Shown piece by piece: positions 960 to 7,068 of a DNA stretch of 12,215 nt. The stretch spans positions 1 through 12,215 of the forward strand of contig CAINCM010000191.1 in NCBI GenBank assembly GCA_903847005.1. Direction: 5' to 3'. The position numbers were made by a program, and so were the translations under genes. A model generated the notes under the pieces. It had not been told where the DNA came from, searched no databases, and saw only the letters and a program-made list of their open reading frames with translations. The DNA comes from an uncultured Chloroflexota bacterium (GTDB taxonomy: Bacteria; Chloroflexota; Limnocylindria; Limnocylindrales; Limnocylindraceae). Numbering within the stretch: the stretch's first letter is position 1; every line of letters begins with the position of its first letter.

Positions 960-2380
960 GCCGCATCCAGCGAGTTGAGAACACCGCGGTTCAAGAGCGC
1001 CTGCCGCTCGTTGCCCTCGTGGGTCGCCCGAACGTCGGAAAGAGCACGCTCTTCAATCGCTTCGTCGGCGAGCGACGTGCCGTCGTGGAAAATCGCGCTG
1101 GAACCACACGCGATCGGCTCATCGCGGTGGCCGAGTGGAATGGATTCAGGTTCCGCCTTGTCGACACAGGGGGGATGCAGCCCGTCCAGGGTGATGTCAT
1201 TGACGTGGCCGTACAAGATCAGGCACGCATCGCAGTGACGAGCGCCGACCTGATCATCCTGGTGGTCGATGCGGCGAGCGGTCCCAATCCTGGAGACGCC
1301 GAGGTTGCGAAGCTGTTGCGCAAGAGCGGCAAGCCGATCCTGCTGGCTGCCAACAAAGCGGACAACATCGAACGGGATCGCGCCTCGCTCGAGTTCTCAG
1401 CGCTCGGCTTCGACGCAATCTATCCGGTGAGCGCGCAACACGGCATCGGATCAGGCGACCTTCTCGACGTGTTGATCGAGAGCCTGCGAGGGCTGCCGCC
1501 CGAGAGCGGCACTCCGACGCGTGAGGGCGAGGTGACGGTGGCGATTGTCGGCCGTCCCAATGTCGGCAAGTCGAGTCTCCTCAACCGACTCCTAGGTGAG
1601 GAGCGCACCGTGGTGAGCAGCGTTCCCGGGACAACGCGAGATGCCATCGACGATCACATCGATCATGGCGGCCGCTACATCACGCTGGTGGACACGGCGG
1701 GGATCAAGAAGCGCGGCAGGATCGCCTCAGGTCCCGTTGCAGAAAAGTACGCAACCGTGCGCTCGGTCGCCGCGCTGGATCGCGCCGACGTGGCACTGCT
1801 GCTTGTGGATGCGTCGACCGGCCTGCAGTCTCAAGACCTTCACGTTGCCGGCTCCGTCATCGAGGCCGGGAAAGGACTGGTCGTCGTGATGAACAAGTGG
1901 GACGTGGTCGAGAAGGATGGATTCACGTTCGATGCGGCGGTGGGGGCGCTCCGTCGCCAGGCGCCATTCCTGGACTTCGCGCCGGTGCTCTCGATTTCTG
2001 CGCTGACCGGGTTGCGTGCAACGAAGGTGCTCGACGCGGCGATCGCCGCGGCGGACGCTCGTCGGCTGCGCATCCCCACAGGCGCTCTGAATCGCCTCGT
2101 CGCGGAGGCCGTGGCCAGACAAGAGCCCGCGCACAGCGGCAGCAAGCGTCCGAAGATCCTCTATGCGGCCCAGGCGGCAACGCCTCCGCCGACCTTCGTC
2201 CTCTTTGCCCGCAACGCGGCGCAGGTGCATTTCAGCTGGCAGCGCTTCCTTGAGAACCAGATCCGAGATCAGTACCCGCTGACCGGGACGCCGATCCGCA
2301 TTGTGGTGCGAGAGCGCGCGGCGGAGGAGGGACGTGAGCGCGGCCGTTCGGGTGGTCGTACCGGGGGTCGGCGCCGATGA
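956..2380 (+). CDS. der: Ribosome-assembly GTPase Der (EngA)
   Basis: Essential tandem GTPase acting in late assembly of the 50S ribosomal subunit. Two complete G domains are visible: GRPNVGKS at 23-30 with DTGG 70-73 and NKAD 133-136, then GRPNVGKS at 199-206 with DTAG 246-249 and NKWD 313-316. A C-terminal KH-like domain follows at about 365-450. The 474-residue length is slightly over the usual size because of an N-terminal extension of about 15 residues and an Arg/Gly-rich tail at about 452-474. The ATG at 956 overlaps the ispH stop and its own TGA overlaps the gpsA ATG, so it is the middle gene of a coupled three-gene operon. The double G domain makes the assignment essentially certain. 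Confidence 0.97.
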   Translation: MSRIQRVENTAVQERLPLVALVGRPNVGKSTLFNRFVGERRAVVENRAGTTRDRLIAVAEWNGFRFRLVDTGGMQPVQGDVIDVAVQDQARIAVTSADLIILVVDAASGPNPGDAEVAKLLRKSGKPILLAANKADNIERDRASLEFSALGFDAIYPVSAQHGIGSGDLLDVLIESLRGLPPESGTPTREGEVTVAIVGRPNVGKSSLLNRLLGEERTVVSSVPGTTRDAIDDHIDHGGRYITLVDTAGIKKRGRIASGPVAEKYATVRSVAALDRADVALLLVDASTGLQSQDLHVAGSVIEAGKGLVVVMNKWDVVEKDGFTFDAAVGALRRQAPFLDFAPVLSISALTGLRATKVLDAAIAAADARRLRIPTGALNRLVAEAVARQEPAHSGSKRPKILYAAQAATPPPTFVLFARNAAQVHFSWQRFLENQIRDQYPLTGTPIRIVVRERAAEEGRERGRSGGRTGGRRR

Positions 2381-3372
2381 TTCGCATCCTTGGTGCAGGT
2401 GCATGGGGGAGTGCGCTCGCAGTGCTCCTTGCCCGTCCACGTGATGGTGTTGCCCCTGCGGAGATCGAGCTGATTGCCCACACTGCGACGGAGGCCGACT
2501 CGATCAGCTCGCATCACGTGTCCCGCCGTCTTCCTGGCATCTCCCTGCCAACAGGAGTAAAGGTGCGGTCAGTGGAAGAGGTGCTTCCTCCACTCGACGG
2601 GCGCGATCTGCTCGTCGTCGCGATTCCATCAGAGGCGATTCGCAACGCCCTTTCGGCCGCTGTATCCGGTGACGCGAGCGTCGTAATGGCCTCCAAGGGA
2701 CTCAGCCGAGAAGGAGAGCGAGTTTCGGAACTTGCGGTTGCCGCGGGGGTGAACCCGGCACGGCTATTCACGCTCTCGGGACCGAATCTTGCCCGCGAGA
2801 TCGCGACAGGCAAACCGGCAGCGGCGGTTCTTGCCAGCCAGGCGGGTCGTCGAGAGGAGGTGCTCGCCGCCCTGACGCGTCCTACGTTCCGGATCTATCT
2901 GAGCGAGGATCCGATCGGCGTTGAGGTTGCCGGCGCACTCAAGAATGTCCTCGCCATCGCGGTGAGCGGCGTTCGTTCGCTCGGCTATGGAGAGAATGCC
3001 GCGGCCGCGCTCCTCTCTCGCGGCGTTGCGGAGATGGCGAGACTTGCCGAGGCGTGTGGCGGGCGGGCAGAGAGCGCGTTCGGCCTTGCGGGCGTCGGCG
3101 ACCTGGTGCTGACCGCCTCGAACACCGGATCACGCAACGCCCGTCTCGGTGAGCTGCTTGCTTCCGGCATGCCGGTGAGCGGCGCTGTGCAAACCATCGG
3201 CGCGACCGTCGAGGGGATCCCCACAGCACACGGCGCCCTCCTCCTCGCCTCGAGACTCGGGGTCGAACTTCCAATAACCGCCGCCGTGGTCGCGGCACTC
3301 GAGCACGAGGTCAGTATCGAACGCCTCGCAGAGGGCCTTCTTGGACGCGCGCCAACAGAGGAGTGGCACTGA
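2377..3372 (+). CDS. gpsA: Glycerol-3-phosphate dehydrogenase [NAD(P)+]
   Basis: Reduces dihydroxyacetone phosphate to sn-glycerol-3-phosphate, the backbone of membrane phospholipids, in the cytosol. The N-terminal Rossmann motif GAGAWG is at 6-11. Catalytic and binding residues are K107 (ASKGL), the SGPNLA motif at 134-139, K189 (GALKN), D242 (GLAGVGDLVLT) and the SRN triplet at 252-254. At 331 residues it has normal family length. It starts four bases inside der (ATGA), making it the last gene of the ispH-der-gpsA operon. The stop codon lies within the probable -35 element of the following tRNA promoter, so there is no dedicated terminator between the two. Phospholipids built on sn-glycerol-3-phosphate are bacterial, which argues against an archaeal source for the window. 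Confidence 0.96.
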   Translation: MIRILGAGAWGSALAVLLARPRDGVAPAEIELIAHTATEADSISSHHVSRRLPGISLPTGVKVRSVEEVLPPLDGRDLLVVAIPSEAIRNALSAAVSGDASVVMASKGLSREGERVSELAVAAGVNPARLFTLSGPNLAREIATGKPAAAVLASQAGRREEVLAALTRPTFRIYLSEDPIGVEVAGALKNVLAIAVSGVRSLGYGENAAAALLSRGVAEMARLAEACGGRAESAFGLAGVGDLVLTASNTGSRNARLGELLASGMPVSGAVQTIGATVEGIPTAHGALLLASRLGVELPITAAVVAALEHEVSIERLAEGLLGRAPTEEWH

Positions 3373-3397
3373 GCAAGGTCGGTCAGACTGCTAGAAT
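3369..3397 (+). promoter_or_regulatory. Probable sigma70-type promoter for tRNA-Pro
   Basis: TAGAAT at 3392-3397 matches five of six bases of the -10 consensus. CTGAGC at 3369-3374 keeps only the central TGA of the -35 and sits exactly 17 bases upstream, overlapping the gpsA stop. Transcription would begin near 3404, about 13 bases before the mature tRNA 5' end. Seen in sequence only; a promoter is an inference. Confidence 0.45.
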
Positions 3398-3416
3398 CGC
3401 GACTCGCGAAGAGCAA

Positions 3417-3493
3417 CGGAGCGTAGCGCAGCTTGGTAGCGCGCTTGCATGGGGTGCAAGAGGTCGCTGGTTCGAATCCAGTCGCTCCGACCA
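3417..3493 (+). tRNA. tRNA-Pro (anticodon GGG)
   Basis: A complete 77-base cloverleaf with encoded CCA. The acceptor stem CGGAGCG (3417-3423) pairs with CGCTCCG (3483-3489). The D stem is GCGC/GCGC (3426-3429 with 3439-3442). The anticodon stem CTTGC/GCAAG encloses loop ATGGGGT with anticodon GGG at 3451-3453. The T stem GCTGG/CCAGT contains one G-U pair and the loop TTCGAAT. C1-G72 with discriminator A73 is the bacterial proline identity set, in agreement with the anticodon. It decodes CCC and, by wobble, CCU. The encoded CCA (3491-3493) is followed directly by a second CCA (3494-3496). Confidence 0.97.
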
Positions 3494-3507
3494 CCAAGTG
3501 ATGGAAA

Positions 3508-3541
3508 CGAGAAGGCCCGGGGTCTCCCCCGGGCCTTCTCG
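3508..3541. terminator. Strong hairpin, probable bidirectional terminator between tRNA-Pro and the rhodopsin gene
   Basis: A perfect 15-bp inverted repeat (3508-3522 with 3527-3541) around a TCTC loop, mostly G-C pairs. It lies between two converging units, 15 bases after the tRNA CCA and 42 bases after the rhodopsin stop. Read on the - strand it is followed by TTTCC, a short U tract; on the + strand there is none. It is therefore a better intrinsic terminator for the rhodopsin transcript and may act as a blocking or processing hairpin for the tRNA. Confidence 0.75.
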
Positions 3542-3583: not shown

Positions 3584-4324
3584 TTAGCGGCCTGTGTTCT
3601 TCAGGGTTGCGATCTTCCAGATGAGGAGACCGTAACCTGGCTTCGCCAGGATGTCCGCAATCGTATATCCAACCTGCTTCAGGACGAGGCCGTCACCGGC
3701 GCTGAGGCCGATGTTCCCGGCGATCGTTGGGAGCAGATAGGCGATCGGGTAGACACCCCACGTTGCAAGCAGAACGACTCGGAGCACCTTGAAGATGCCC
3801 TGGATCTCCTTGCTCTGCTTCTTGAACGAGGCATCGATTCCACCGAAGAGGTCACGCAGAATCAGGACGAAGAAGATCGTGCTGATTGCGCCCCAGATCG
3901 TGCGTGAGGAGTCGAGGACCACAGAGGTCTGGTTGTCCATCTCGCCGATGTAGCCCGTTGCGATCATGAGGAAGGCGTAGAGCACATTCCTCTGGATCAG
4001 ATTGCTCTCGACCTTCTTGTCGAGGCGCAGGACGAGGATCAGCTCGGCCACAAGGAGTGGCACGGTGAGCAGCCAGTCAACGTAGCGGTATGCCTCGTTG
4101 AACTCGCCGAGCGAACCACCTGCGGTGGCAACCCACGAGTCGAAGATGCGGACGTAGTGGTAGAAGGCAATCAGCACGACCGTGGCCGAGAGCGTGACCG
4201 CCATCCGGTTTCCCTCCTTCAGCGCTCCGCGTGCGGAGACGAAGAAGAAGAAGCTCGCGCCCATCGAAGCGATGGCCAGCGACATGAAGTTGTATACCAA
4301 CTGGTATCCCTGTTCTGGACTCAT
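3584..4324 (-). CDS. Xanthorhodopsin/actinorhodopsin-like light-driven proton pump
   Basis: A seven-helix retinal protein of the inner membrane that pumps protons outward in light. The 246 residues have no signal peptide. Helix C, beginning RYVDWLLTVPLL at 80-91, gives R80, the Schiff-base counterion D83, T87 and the carboxyl proton donor E94: the DTE set of outward H+ pumps. H56 matches the counterion-paired histidine of proteorhodopsin (H75). L91 is at the spectral switch (proteorhodopsin 105), where Leu means green absorption. Helix G has D224 and retinal-binding K228 (DILAKPGYG). RIFDSW (59-64) and FNEAYRYVDW (75-84) look like xanthorhodopsin or actinorhodopsin. G145 in helix E aligns with proteorhodopsin F152 and xanthorhodopsin G156, the opening that admits a carotenoid antenna. 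The ATG is supported by GGAGGT five bases upstream. The gene is single, transcribed divergently from the carotenoid cluster. Confidence 0.95.
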   Translation of the reverse strand: MSPEQGYQLVYNFMSLAIASMGASFFFFVSARGALKEGNRMAVTLSATVVLIAFYHYVRIFDSWVATAGGSLGEFNEAYRYVDWLLTVPLLVAELILVLRLDKKVESNLIQRNVLYAFLMIATGYIGEMDNQTSVVLDSSRTIWGAISTIFFVLILRDLFGGIDASFKKQSKEIQGIFKVLRVVLLATWGVYPIAYLLPTIAGNIGLSAGDGLVLKQVGYTIADILAKPGYGLLIWKIATLKNTGR

Positions 4325-4399: not shown

Positions 4400-4505
4400 G
4401 GAACCGCAATCAACTGCCCCGCGGCGCGCAATGTAACAATGCAGCGCTCTGCGGGCAGGGGGCAGCACGCCGTACGAGGCGCTACGCTGCGAGGAGGAGG
4501 TGTCC

Positions 4506-4895
4506 ATGCCAGCCATCGGGGAATTGACGCGGATCGAGCCGGTCCACCTTGCTCGCCTCGAGGCACAGGGGATCTTCACGACGGGACTCCTTCTTGAGCG
4601 GAGCGAAACCCCGACTCGTCGACAGACCCTTGCCGATCAGACCGACGCCACCCTTGCTGACGTCGACGAGTGGCGTGACGAGGCGTTGCTGCTCAACCTC
4701 GCCTTCTTCGGCCGCCCGGAGCACGAACTGCTCGCCGCCGCCGGGATCTCGGGCATTCGAGCCCTTGCCGAGAGCGACTGGGATGAGTTTCAGGCCTCCG
4801 TGATGCGAGCGACAGCGATGCTCGGCCGCGTGGCGCCCGACCCGCTCTCCCTGCGTTCGTGGTGGGAGCAGGGACGCGTCCTCGTCGACGCGTGA
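4506..4895 (+). CDS. DUF4332 helix-hairpin-helix-like protein
   Basis: A small soluble protein of 129 residues, function unknown. The pattern resembles Pfam DUF4332. A first segment contains IEPVHLARLEAQGI (10-23), then TRRQTLADQTDATLADVDEW at 37-56, a leucine-rich turn and a second segment HELLAAAGISGIRALAE (73-89). Each resembles the helix-hairpin-helix folds that bind DNA or proteins without sequence specificity. There is no signal peptide or membrane segment. The ATG at 4506 is preferred over an in-frame GTG at 4500 because GGAGGAGG ends five bases before the ATG and covers the GTG. It is the first gene of the + strand run and its stop overlaps the next gene (GTGA). Nothing in the sequence links it directly to carotenoids or rhodopsin; only its position does. 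Confidence 0.75.
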   Translation: MPAIGELTRIEPVHLARLEAQGIFTTGLLLERSETPTRRQTLADQTDATLADVDEWRDEALLLNLAFFGRPEHELLAAAGISGIRALAESDWDEFQASVMRATAMLGRVAPDPLSLRSWWEQGRVLVDA

Positions 4896-5524
4896 GGCCG
4901 GTGCGCCGCACGGCGCGTCGAATCGGGATTGCGCTCCTCGCGCTCCTCGCGCTCCTCGCGCTGACGTTGGGTCTCTTCCTGCTTCCCCCAATCACGCATC
5001 TCCTCCTTGGAGTTGCGGGTTCAGCCGAGGCACTGGACGTCGATCACGCCGTCGCAGCCTCCCTCTCGGATGCGCTCGTGCGCGACCTTCTCACCGGCGG
5101 CAACTTCGACGCGCCGCTCAACGCCGCTCCGCTTCTGAGCGCCTCTGAGCGCTCGCATCTTGTGGATGTCGGGTCACTCTTTCGGGTTCTCATGGCGGCG
5201 GGAGCGCTCGCCGTTGCAGTGCTCATCGCGCTCTACCGTCGCAAGAGGCGCTGGTTCTTTCAGGGACTCCATGACGGTGCGTTGCTGCTTGGCGCCGGGG
5301 CCGCCGCGGTCGGAGGCGCATTCGCGCTCGCGTTCGATGCAACGTTCACCTTCGCCCATGAACTGCTCTTTCCAGCAGGCAACTGGATGTTCAATCCGGC
5401 GACCGATCGGCTGGTGCAGCTCTATCCGATGAGCTTCTGGGTGTGGACTGCGATGAGCTTCTGCGCGGTGCTGGTGGGGGCGGCGACGATCGGCTTTCTG
5501 ATTGCGCGCGGGCGGAGAAGATGA
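4892..5524 (+). CDS. DUF1461 (TIGR01906-like) integral membrane protein
   Basis: A 210-residue membrane protein of unknown function. A basic N-terminus (RRTARR) precedes helix 1 (about 11-32), an outside domain of about 65 residues, and three more helices at about 97-115, 128-150 and 182-204, ending in RGRRR. Family hallmarks are HLVDV at 89-93, then after helix 3 the run NWMFNPATDRL (164-174) and LYPMSFW (177-183), very like bacterial DUF1461 proteins. The start is uncertain: GTG 4892 is preferred because it overlaps the previous TGA in the 4-base style seen across the window, but GTG 4859 and 4862 are also in frame. No good Shine-Dalgarno is visible, which suits translational coupling. Its stop overlaps the carotenoid enzyme's ATG at 5521. 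Its constant position between these genes here may mean a shared membrane role, but this is inference. Confidence 0.8.
   Translation: MRPVRRTARRIGIALLALLALLALTLGLFLLPPITHLLLGVAGSAEALDVDHAVAASLSDALVRDLLTGGNFDAPLNAAPLLSASERSHLVDVGSLFRVLMAAGALAVAVLIALYRRKRRWFFQGLHDGALLLGAGAAAVGGAFALAFDATFTFAHELLFPAGNWMFNPATDRLVQLYPMSFWVWTAMSFCAVLVGAATIGFLIARGRRR
4931..4962 (+). repeat. In-frame 9-bp tandem repeat (3.5 copies)
   Basis: The unit GCGCTCCTC repeats exactly three times (4931-4957) plus five bases. Each unit encodes Ala-Leu-Leu, building the core of the first membrane helix of the DUF1461 protein. Copy-number change would lengthen or shorten the helix by three residues without a frameshift. Confidence 0.9.
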
Positions 5525-7068
5525 TGGGGGAGGCCTATCTTCTCGCCATCGTCGGCTCAATCGCAGGGATCCACGGCGTTGCGCGCCGATGGAGTCCATG
5601 GACCAAGCGTACGGTCGTTCTCCCGGTCGCAACCGCAATCAGCATCGCCTTTCTCCTGGTGGACACGCTGGGTCTTGCAAGAGGCTGGTTCGCCACACCC
5701 GCCTCTGGAACGACGTTGGCGCTCCCAGGAGCCGGTCCGCTGGGACGCGGATTCCCGATAGAGGAGCCGCTACTACTCTTTGGGATCACGTCGCTTGCCG
5801 TGCTGATTGCAGATCTTGTCGGTCGCGGACGCGTGCACACCTCCAGCCCACTTGGACTACGTGACGCTGTGAGTGTTGCAATGATCGGTGCGCTCACTGG
5901 AGCGACGATCGGCGCGCTGATGATCGGCGCAGAGTACACCGTGGCCTCTGCGGCGCTCGCGGGCAGTGGCGTTGCACTCGCGTGGCCGCTTCTCGTTGCC
6001 GATCGCGGGTCGCAAGCATCGTTCACGATCTTCCTGATCCTCACCCTGATCTTCGACAATCTGCTCTGCGCGAGCGGACTCCTCACCTATCCCTCTGGTC
6101 CGCGAAGCGGAGTTCTGCTTGGGTACATGCCTCTTGAGGATCTTCTCTATGCCGTCGGCCTTGTGGGTGCTGCGCTGCGGCTCCGAGCGGAGGTGATGCG
6201 AGGTCAGGGGAGTGCATGGAGGATCTTTCTCGCCTCGCGGCCAATCTCCTGGATCAACACCGGCCTCCCGTTTCTTGCAGGTCTGATCGCCGCCGGTGCA
6301 GGCGAGCGCCTTGGCGGCTGGCTTCTGGCACCGCTCCTCTGGTGGGGTGCGGGCTACAACCTCTTCCTTTACGGCATCAACGACTTGTACGATCGTGCGA
6401 GCGACGCCAAGAATCCACGCAAGGGCGGTGCGGAGGGCGCACTGCTTCGCGTACGAGACCTACCGTCGCTTCGCGTCGCCCTTTGGATCGCGGGAGTGCT
6501 CCCGGCAATCGTGATGTGGTTGACCATCCCAGCTCCCGCCGGGCTGGCACCCCTCGTCGCGGTGGGACTGGCGACGCTTTACAGTGCGCCATGGTTCGCA
6601 CGGGCGCGCTCGATCCCGATCCTCGACTCCGTCGTCTCATCGGCGCACTTCCTACTCCCGCCAGTGGCGGGGCTCCTCTTTGCGAGTGCACTCAACGATG
6701 ATTGGCTTGCACCGCTGATCGCGCTGGCCCTTTGGGGAGGCGCAAGCCATGCGCTCGGCGCGGTGCAGGATGTGGATGCTGACCGGCGAACGGGAATCCG
6801 CACCATCGCAACGCTGTTCGGTCCCACCCGCACCGCATGGATCGTCGTGTTGACATATGTGGCGGCGGCCCTCCCGCTCGCAGTTCAGATGGAGCCACTC
6901 GCCCGTCTCGCGGCCGTCATTCCGCTGCTCAGCGCCGTCTCGGCAGCCCCGCTGGTCCGCGGTGCATCTTCGTACCGATCCGCTCGTGCGGCATGGCGAA
7001 GGTTCCTCTGGATGAATGCACCCCTTGGCGCAGCTGCCTCCATCATCCTGCTCGAGAGTTGGCGCTGA
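5521..7068 (+). CDS. Fused carotenoid cyclase (CrtYc-CrtYd) and UbiA-type lycopene elongase
   Basis: A 515-residue membrane enzyme combining three parts. The first CrtYc-like repeat (about 1-100) has D48, GW at 55-56 and PIEEP at 79-83. The second, CrtYd-like (about 115-222), has FD at 178-179, a GLLTYP turn and PLEDLLY at 204-210. Together they form a heterodimer-type lycopene cyclase in one chain. From about 235 follows a UbiA prenyltransferase with NDLYDRASD at 287-295, NPRKG (298-302) and DVDAD at 417-421, the two Mg-diphosphate motifs, with wording close to lycopene elongases (CrtEb, LbtC). Known relatives attach C5 units to lycopene and cyclise the product to C50 carotenoids such as decaprenoxanthin or C.p.450. 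ATG 5521 overlaps the DUF1461 stop; ATG 5524 is nearly as good and has better spacing from GGAG at 5514. It cannot be told from sequence whether the cyclase prefers C40 or C50 substrate. Confidence 0.88.
   Translation: MMGEAYLLAIVGSIAGIHGVARRWSPWTKRTVVLPVATAISIAFLLVDTLGLARGWFATPASGTTLALPGAGPLGRGFPIEEPLLLFGITSLAVLIADLVGRGRVHTSSPLGLRDAVSVAMIGALTGATIGALMIGAEYTVASAALAGSGVALAWPLLVADRGSQASFTIFLILTLIFDNLLCASGLLTYPSGPRSGVLLGYMPLEDLLYAVGLVGAALRLRAEVMRGQGSAWRIFLASRPISWINTGLPFLAGLIAAGAGERLGGWLLAPLLWWGAGYNLFLYGINDLYDRASDAKNPRKGGAEGALLRVRDLPSLRVALWIAGVLPAIVMWLTIPAPAGLAPLVAVGLATLYSAPWFARARSIPILDSVVSSAHFLLPPVAGLLFASALNDDWLAPLIALALWGGASHALGAVQDVDADRRTGIRTIATLFGPTRTAWIVVLTYVAAALPLAVQMEPLARLAAVIPLLSAVSAAPLVRGASSYRSARAAWRRFLWMNAPLGAAASIILLESWR

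Follow-up and report, generated by a model that had tools for sequence, protein, structure and literature searches.

A predicted single-chain lycopene elongase/cyclase encoded beside a xanthorhodopsin-like gene in freshwater Chloroflexota

Structure of the fusion gene

The window analyzed here is a stretch of 12,215 bp (contig CAINCM010000191.1, assembly GCA_903847005.1), whose forward strand encodes between positions 5521 and 7068 a protein that combines two lycopene cyclase repeats of the CrtYc and CrtYd type with a UbiA-type prenyltransferase. This protein is probably a single-chain lycopene elongase/cyclase for the synthesis of cyclic C45/C50 carotenoids. The prediction is carried by the single frame, the three domains and their conserved motifs, the phylogeny of the elongase half, the signs of selection, and the presence of crtB and crtI; from these observations we infer catalysis, the order of steps, the product, and a possible transfer of substrate inside the chain. 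The frame comprises 515 codons without an internal stop. A mechanical open reading frame call offers an alternative upstream start at GTG 5443, but we take ATG 5521 as start codon because it overlaps with the stop codon of the preceding gene and agrees with the starts found in the family. The gene has the following features:

5521..7068, + strand: single-chain CrtYc-CrtYd-UbiA gene, 515 amino acids plus stop
5521..5835, + strand: residues 1-105, a CrtYc-like cyclase repeat with three transmembrane helices (27-32 bits with the CrtYc profile of 56 split genes)
5755..5766, + strand: PIEE motif (residues 79-82) of the first repeat, conserved in the 46-row alignment
5857..5922, + strand: extra transmembrane linker helix between the cyclase repeats, residues 113-134
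5932..6201, + strand: residues 138-227, a CrtYd-like cyclase repeat with three transmembrane helices (45-49 bits with the CrtYd profile of 56 split genes)
6130..6141, + strand: PLED motif (residues 204-207) of the second repeat, conserved in the 46-row alignment
6217..7065, + strand: UbiA-type lycopene elongase half, residues 233-515
6379..6405, + strand: first Asp-rich motif NDLYDRASD, residues 287-295, key residues invariant
6769..6783, + strand: second Asp-rich motif DVDAD, residues 417-421, D417 and D421 invariant

The helices of the CrtYc-like repeat lie at residues 2-24, 30-53, and 81-101, and the linker helix is less conserved (43%) than the two cyclase repeats (65-67%). The acids E81, E82, E206, and D207 as well as P204 occur in all 46 rows of the cyclase alignment, and P79 in 45 of them; the acids of these PxEE/PxED motifs are, we assume, the catalytic residues. 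In alignment A1 (39 rows, 38 of them distinct with P0001 present twice), the key residues of all four motifs are invariant, in the UbiA half N287, D288, D291, D295, D417, and D421. The uninterrupted frame and the four motifs claimed in the original prediction were thereby confirmed. The structural features of a heterodimer-type cyclase (two repeats of three transmembrane helices, one CrtYc-like and one CrtYd-like, with PxEE and PxED) are present in the fusion protein, and its C-terminal half has those of a lycopene elongase (a UbiA domain with both Asp-rich motifs). Ratios of non-synonymous to synonymous substitution rates (dN/dS) per domain were 0.04-0.15 in six of seven genome pairs and 0.12-0.29 in the pair G110/G114, with values of 0.06-0.13 for the UbiA half over the seven pairs; these ratios are rough, since many dS values exceed 1 and are saturated.

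Phylogeny and profile-based domain assignment

For phylogenetic analysis, sequences of the fusion family were combined with others from named loci carrying crtYc, crtYd, and ubiA homologs, which were the best 80 of at least 559, with gene order read from frame starts. Of the 72 non-fusion loci among them, 26 were used in the UbiA tree and 22 in the cyclase tree, hand-picked for spread. The UbiA halves of the fusion proteins formed one clade (support 100/100) in the UbiA tree of 69 rows. They fell inside an elongase clade of 57 rows (100/99), and all 12 outgroup rows, which comprised heme O, menA, and decaprenyl-phosphate phosphoribosyltransferase (DPPR) sequences and three unassigned UbiA rows, branched outside. 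Ten of these 12 rows were scanned with NCBIfam and five scored above a curated cut-off (L224, L230, L232, L245, L246); L223 and L227 are named heme O from their tree position only, and L229, L231, and L241 are UbiA proteins of no assigned family with weak archaeal-lipid-like scores. The tree carries a warning for long outgroup branches. A menaquinone, heme, or DPPR prenyltransferase identity of the UbiA half, the first two of which the original prediction had named as incompatible with its proposal, was rejected on the basis of this topology. A chlorophyll prenyltransferase identity, named there as well, was rejected on scores alone, as the tree contains no chlorophyll synthase row: the respective match reached 32.3 bits, compared with 200.8 bits for the elongase-type model PRK13105, and solved chlorophyll synthases matched with 23.4 bits. 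In the tree of the cyclase pieces (46 rows), the fusion, the Chloroflexota, and the actinobacterial rows each occupied one side of a branch; this tree has no outgroup and therefore does not indicate the sister group of the fusion. Taken together, both trees fit a single fusion event that predates the diversification of the genus.

Several results weigh against the assignment as elongase/cyclase or narrow it. The fusion UbiA grouped beside actinobacterial CrtEb with a support of only 90/85, and the chlorophyll synthases were the sole solved structures matched by sequence. PRK13105, although the best NCBIfam model for the fusion protein, scored just under its cut-off of 217 bits, whereas five UbiA proteins from other crtYc-crtYd loci reached 255-443 bits. 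The UbiA half is therefore called a diverged homolog that would work like an elongase; PF01040 spans residues 249-498 with 79.4 bits, above its cut-off. On the cyclase repeats, TIGR03462 gave 27-31.4 bits (cut-off 39.4) and PF18916 gave 17.7 bits (cut-off 27), and the cyclase claim is accordingly limited to a homolog predicted to work like a CrtYc/CrtYd-type cyclase. Finally, the genome contains a second elongase-clade UbiA (see below), so that elongation to C50 might be divided between both proteins, or the fused half might serve another function.

Because the curated cyclase models stayed below their cut-offs, separate profiles were built from 56 loci with split crtYc, crtYd, and ubiA genes. 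These loci were chosen by using profiles that contained the fusion family, but none stems from the fusion genus and no fusion-family sequence is among them. The resulting profiles matched the fusion protein at residues 2-101 (CrtYc) and 165-213 (CrtYd), with the scores listed above, and at residues 234-514 (UbiA; 218 bits), whereas the top scores of 200 shuffled N-terminal halves were 8.7, 3.5, and 6.1 bits, respectively. The same domain order was found in ten other members of the fusion family taken from the matches listed in the protein search. The two cyclase repeats in the fusion protein thus are real. Of the domain assignment originally predicted, the order CrtYc, CrtYd, and UbiA was recovered with the split-gene profiles, while the expected TIGR03462 match remained below threshold. 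Both computable checks of the original prediction, on domain order and on the tree position of the UbiA half, spoke in its favor.

Host and distribution of the fusion

The original prediction had viewed the gene in an actinobacterial setting, which has to be corrected. The source contig belongs to a 1.1 Mb assembly, the closest organism-named relative of the fusion protein among the matches listed is from Candidatus Limnocylindrus sp. (83% identity), and the host is a freshwater Limnocylindrus/Aquidulcis-type member of the Chloroflexota (SL56 group), not an actinobacterium. For this group, a worldwide occurrence in the surface waters of lakes has been described (PMC6169038).

The fusion was detected in 18 of 19 draft genomes of the genus (59-92% complete), namely as a complete gene in 12, as two contig pieces in four, and cut by a contig end in two, and was not found in the remaining draft. 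The frame is interrupted solely at contig ends (six genomes). An assembly artifact was rejected because the fusion recurs in these 18 genomes and in other metagenome protein clusters. In a collection of 5.8 billion proteins (120 matches listed of 1786; 8000 candidates scored), the top matches P0002-P0060 are 484-525 amino acids long, except the short P0017 and P0046, with a query coverage of 94-100%; they are followed by three fragments and then by two-part actinobacterial proteins of approximately 390 amino acids. The cyclase half alone as query retrieved four proteins, all of which are pieces of the fusion family.

Among the best 80 named loci, eight are triple fusions, all of the Limnocylindrus type, and 56 are split in the order crtYc, crtYd, ubiA. 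CrtYd and UbiA are joined in seven loci (Leucobacter, Paenarthrobacter, Arthrobacter, a Rothia bin, and Flavimobilis), and nine are irregular (two with UbiA only, two with CrtYd and UbiA, two with CrtYd before CrtYc, two with CrtYd after UbiA, and one with UbiA first). No triple fusion outside the genus was found among the 120 matches listed and the 16 matches for the cyclase half, nor in the 72 other loci, 177 genomes of the class, and 400 genomes of the phylum drawn from a larger group. The search for this architecture, as proposed originally, thus returned Limnocylindrus-type proteins only within the matches and genomes covered, and rare triple fusions may exist elsewhere given the limits of these searches.

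Some loci stand out for their labels. A record titled as a Thermoflexus hugenholtzii JAD2 isolate (L149) has a Limnocylindrus-type locus and is probably mislabeled. Split crtYc-crtYd-ubiA genes occur in two Saccharibacteria bins and in the Chloroflexi bin PMG_070 (L173, L206, L155); in both trees the locus of PMG_070 falls among those of Saccharibacteria, possibly through transfer or misbinning.

Carotenoid and retinal pathway in the genus

Homologs of crtI and crtB above cut-off were found in 18 and 17 of the 19 genomes, respectively, and no CrtY/CrtL lycopene cyclase reached its cut-off in any of them. Weak matches to PF05834 occurred in 15 genomes, with 20-22 bits at positions 2-36 of 380, and each lies at the start of a second CrtI. 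On contig C52 of the source genome, the genes of a second elongase-clade UbiA and of this second CrtI overlap (G000; L066:3522-4460 and 1948-3522). The second UbiA groups with two PRK12875-type proteins (93/75), a placement flagged as possibly false, and the adjoining CrtI has CrtD scores below cut-off; the pair might point to a further, acyclic route to C50 carotenoids of the bacterioruberin type in this genome.

In the proposed pathway, lycopene would be supplied by CrtB and CrtI, which are encoded elsewhere in the genome. With dimethylallyl diphosphate as donor, the UbiA half would then extend lycopene at its ends by C5 units by means of its two Asp-rich, Mg-binding motifs, whereupon the pair of cyclase repeats, with its PxEE/PxED acids, would carry out one or more ring closures at the extended ends. 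The products are likely cyclic C45/C50 carotenoids with beta, gamma, or epsilon rings, formed by a one- or two-ended reaction.

Neither Blh (PF15461) nor an RPE65-type enzyme was detected in the 19 draft genomes; thus, no established route from beta-carotene to retinal was detected in the genus. As a positive control, PF15461 matched 16 of 150 genomes of the family of genome G522 with up to 234 bits; it matched none of 14 standard control genomes, two control genomes matched for RPE65, and the 400 phylum genomes contained a single weak PF15461 match (22.5 bits), which is under the cut-off. The apparent absence of these genes is not new: Nakajima et al. showed that retinal is present in an actinobacterium that has crtYe/Yf and crtEb and lacks blh and diox1, proposed a C50 route for it, and mentioned Chloroflexi among the rhodopsin carriers without blh/diox1 (PMC7734400).

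Rhodopsin neighborhood and alternative explanations

Three further genes of the window lie upstream of the fusion gene:

3584..4324, - strand: xanthorhodopsin-like gene, oriented divergently to the fusion (PF01036, 139.4 bits; best solved relative xanthorhodopsin 3ddl)
4500..4895, + strand: gene for a DUF4332 protein, located between the rhodopsin and fusion genes (PF14229, 53.9 bits)
4859..5524, + strand: TIGR01906/Lit-like membrane protein gene, overlapping the fusion start

The rhodopsin gene is present in 18 of the 19 genomes, and in 17 of the 18 with both genes it lies on the same contig and is divergent from the fusion; in G116 the two are on separate contigs. The distance between the two matches measures 1233-1264 bases in 15 genomes, 162 in G120, and 238 in G112. 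In most loci examined, the DUF4332 and Lit-like genes (4500-5524 in the window) lie between rhodopsin and fusion; neither was detected in G112 or G120. A rhodopsin gene is present at seven of the eight fusion loci among the named loci and was not found in the fetched flanks (up to 3 kb) of the 72 others. All 19 rhodopsin rows (18 genomes, with the copy of the source stretch included twice) have conserved the D-T-E set, the lysine, and G145, the fenestration glycine that we use as the mark of a xanthorhodopsin, and G145 aligns with the glycine of SrXR and Kin4B8. This glycine next to the retinal ring has a role in the antenna site (PMC13093654), and xanthorhodopsin-like genes with a possible antenna were reported for freshwater Chloroflexi including SL56 in the paper that named Limnocylindrus (PMC6169038).

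One explanation, whose chance we put slightly below even, is compatible with an elongase/cyclase function and differs only on the purpose of the fusion: operon genes may have fused without functional gain, with activities as in the split enzymes, a rhodopsin synteny due to chance, and retinal taken up from outside. The conserved synteny indeed also takes in the unrelated housekeeping genes der, gpsA, nrdR, and dcd, and retinal uptake was proposed for Luna-1 Actinomycetota with a similar gene set, which have rhodopsin and crtEb and mostly lack blh (PMC12422013). However, G112 and G120 have kept the rhodopsin-fusion pair, whereas lytB, der, gpsA, dcd, and nrdR were not found on their short contigs (6.5 and 7.1 kb), which argues only weakly against this explanation. 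A compact light-harvesting module, in which the cyclic C45/C50 carotenoid would serve as xanthorhodopsin antenna and perhaps also as retinal source, if a product in which one beta end is unsubstituted were cleaved asymmetrically, appears rather doubtful; as a C50 carotenoid substituted at both ends cannot yield plain retinal, the retinal part would need a C40 or C45 product.

The cyclase half could alternatively act on C40 lycopene and form beta-carotene (or gamma-carotene) as retinal precursor for the neighboring rhodopsin, the UbiA half being a passenger or of minor importance. Such a role would suit the divergent rhodopsin neighbor and the lack of another lycopene cyclase among the 19 genomes, but is unlikely in view of the invariant motifs and low dN/dS of the UbiA half and the missing Blh and RPE65 homologs. 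That the enzyme elongates but hardly cyclizes, giving an acyclic product of the flavuxanthin/bacterioruberin type alongside the second elongase/CrtI pair, would agree with the CrtD-like score of that CrtI and the sub-threshold cyclase scores but is quite improbable with the acid motifs kept and dN/dS low in both repeats.

If the predicted elongase/cyclase is active as a single chain, a single natural gene would suffice to convert lycopene into a cyclic C50 carotenoid, which would be of use in pigment engineering, and the protein would be a system for asking whether substrate passes between elongation and cyclization inside one membrane protein. The location of the gene beside a rhodopsin in a small-genome freshwater group described from lake surface waters worldwide (PMC6169038) also relates it to the questions of the antenna and the retinal source of this rhodopsin.

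Comparison with known systems

The single chain, the added helix, the near-universal presence in the genus, and the rhodopsin neighborhood are undescribed as far as our searches show. Three carotenoid activities in one chain have a precedent in CrtIBY of Aurantiochytrium, demonstrated in yeast (PMC5924542), and fungal phytoene synthase/lycopene cyclase fusions are a further one (PMC2889829), but these proteins are eukaryotic and their activities differ (desaturase, synthase, C40 cyclase). Other Chloroflexota (families f2, f18, f22, and f44) share the order crtYc-crtYd-ubiA but have split cyclases. In 10 of 14 such loci crtI and crtB follow, and in 10 of 14 the UbiA frame carries a C-terminal family 2 glycosyltransferase (by BLAST; by Pfam in the three tested), which the Limnocylindrus protein lacks and which suggests glycosylated C50 carotenoids in these relatives. 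In L083:9783-11888 and L110:9863-11851, such an elongase-like UbiA with family 2 glycosyltransferase lies between crtYd and crtI. L107:2-2125 (G503) is a triple fusion of another kind, in which a single frame that extends beyond the contig start encodes CrtYd, UbiA, and the glycosyltransferase, with CrtYc separate.

The domains of the fusion protein are presumably homologous to the enzymes of Corynebacterium glutamicum and Micrococcus luteus, homology having been computed on other actinobacterial loci. The three activities proposed for the fusion are known from CrtYe/CrtYf/CrtEb of C. glutamicum and CrtYg/CrtYh/CrtE2 of M. luteus, where they reside in three separate proteins (PMC6393565). Closest is LbtBC of Dietzia sp. 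CQ4, which, as originally stated, joins one cyclase subunit to the elongase (PMC6393565), although it is not the sole case, given the CrtYd-UbiA fusions in the seven loci mentioned above. In LbtBC the elongase likewise follows in frame behind a CrtYf/CrtYd-type subunit, with equal domain order, and LbtA together with LbtBC yields the cyclic C50 carotenoid C.p.450 in Escherichia coli (PMC6393565, PMC6669644). The first cyclase subunit, LbtA, is separate in Dietzia, whereas the Limnocylindrus protein fuses its equivalent through an added transmembrane helix. The chemistry is inherited from known enzymes, with LbtBC two thirds of the way to the fusion protein.
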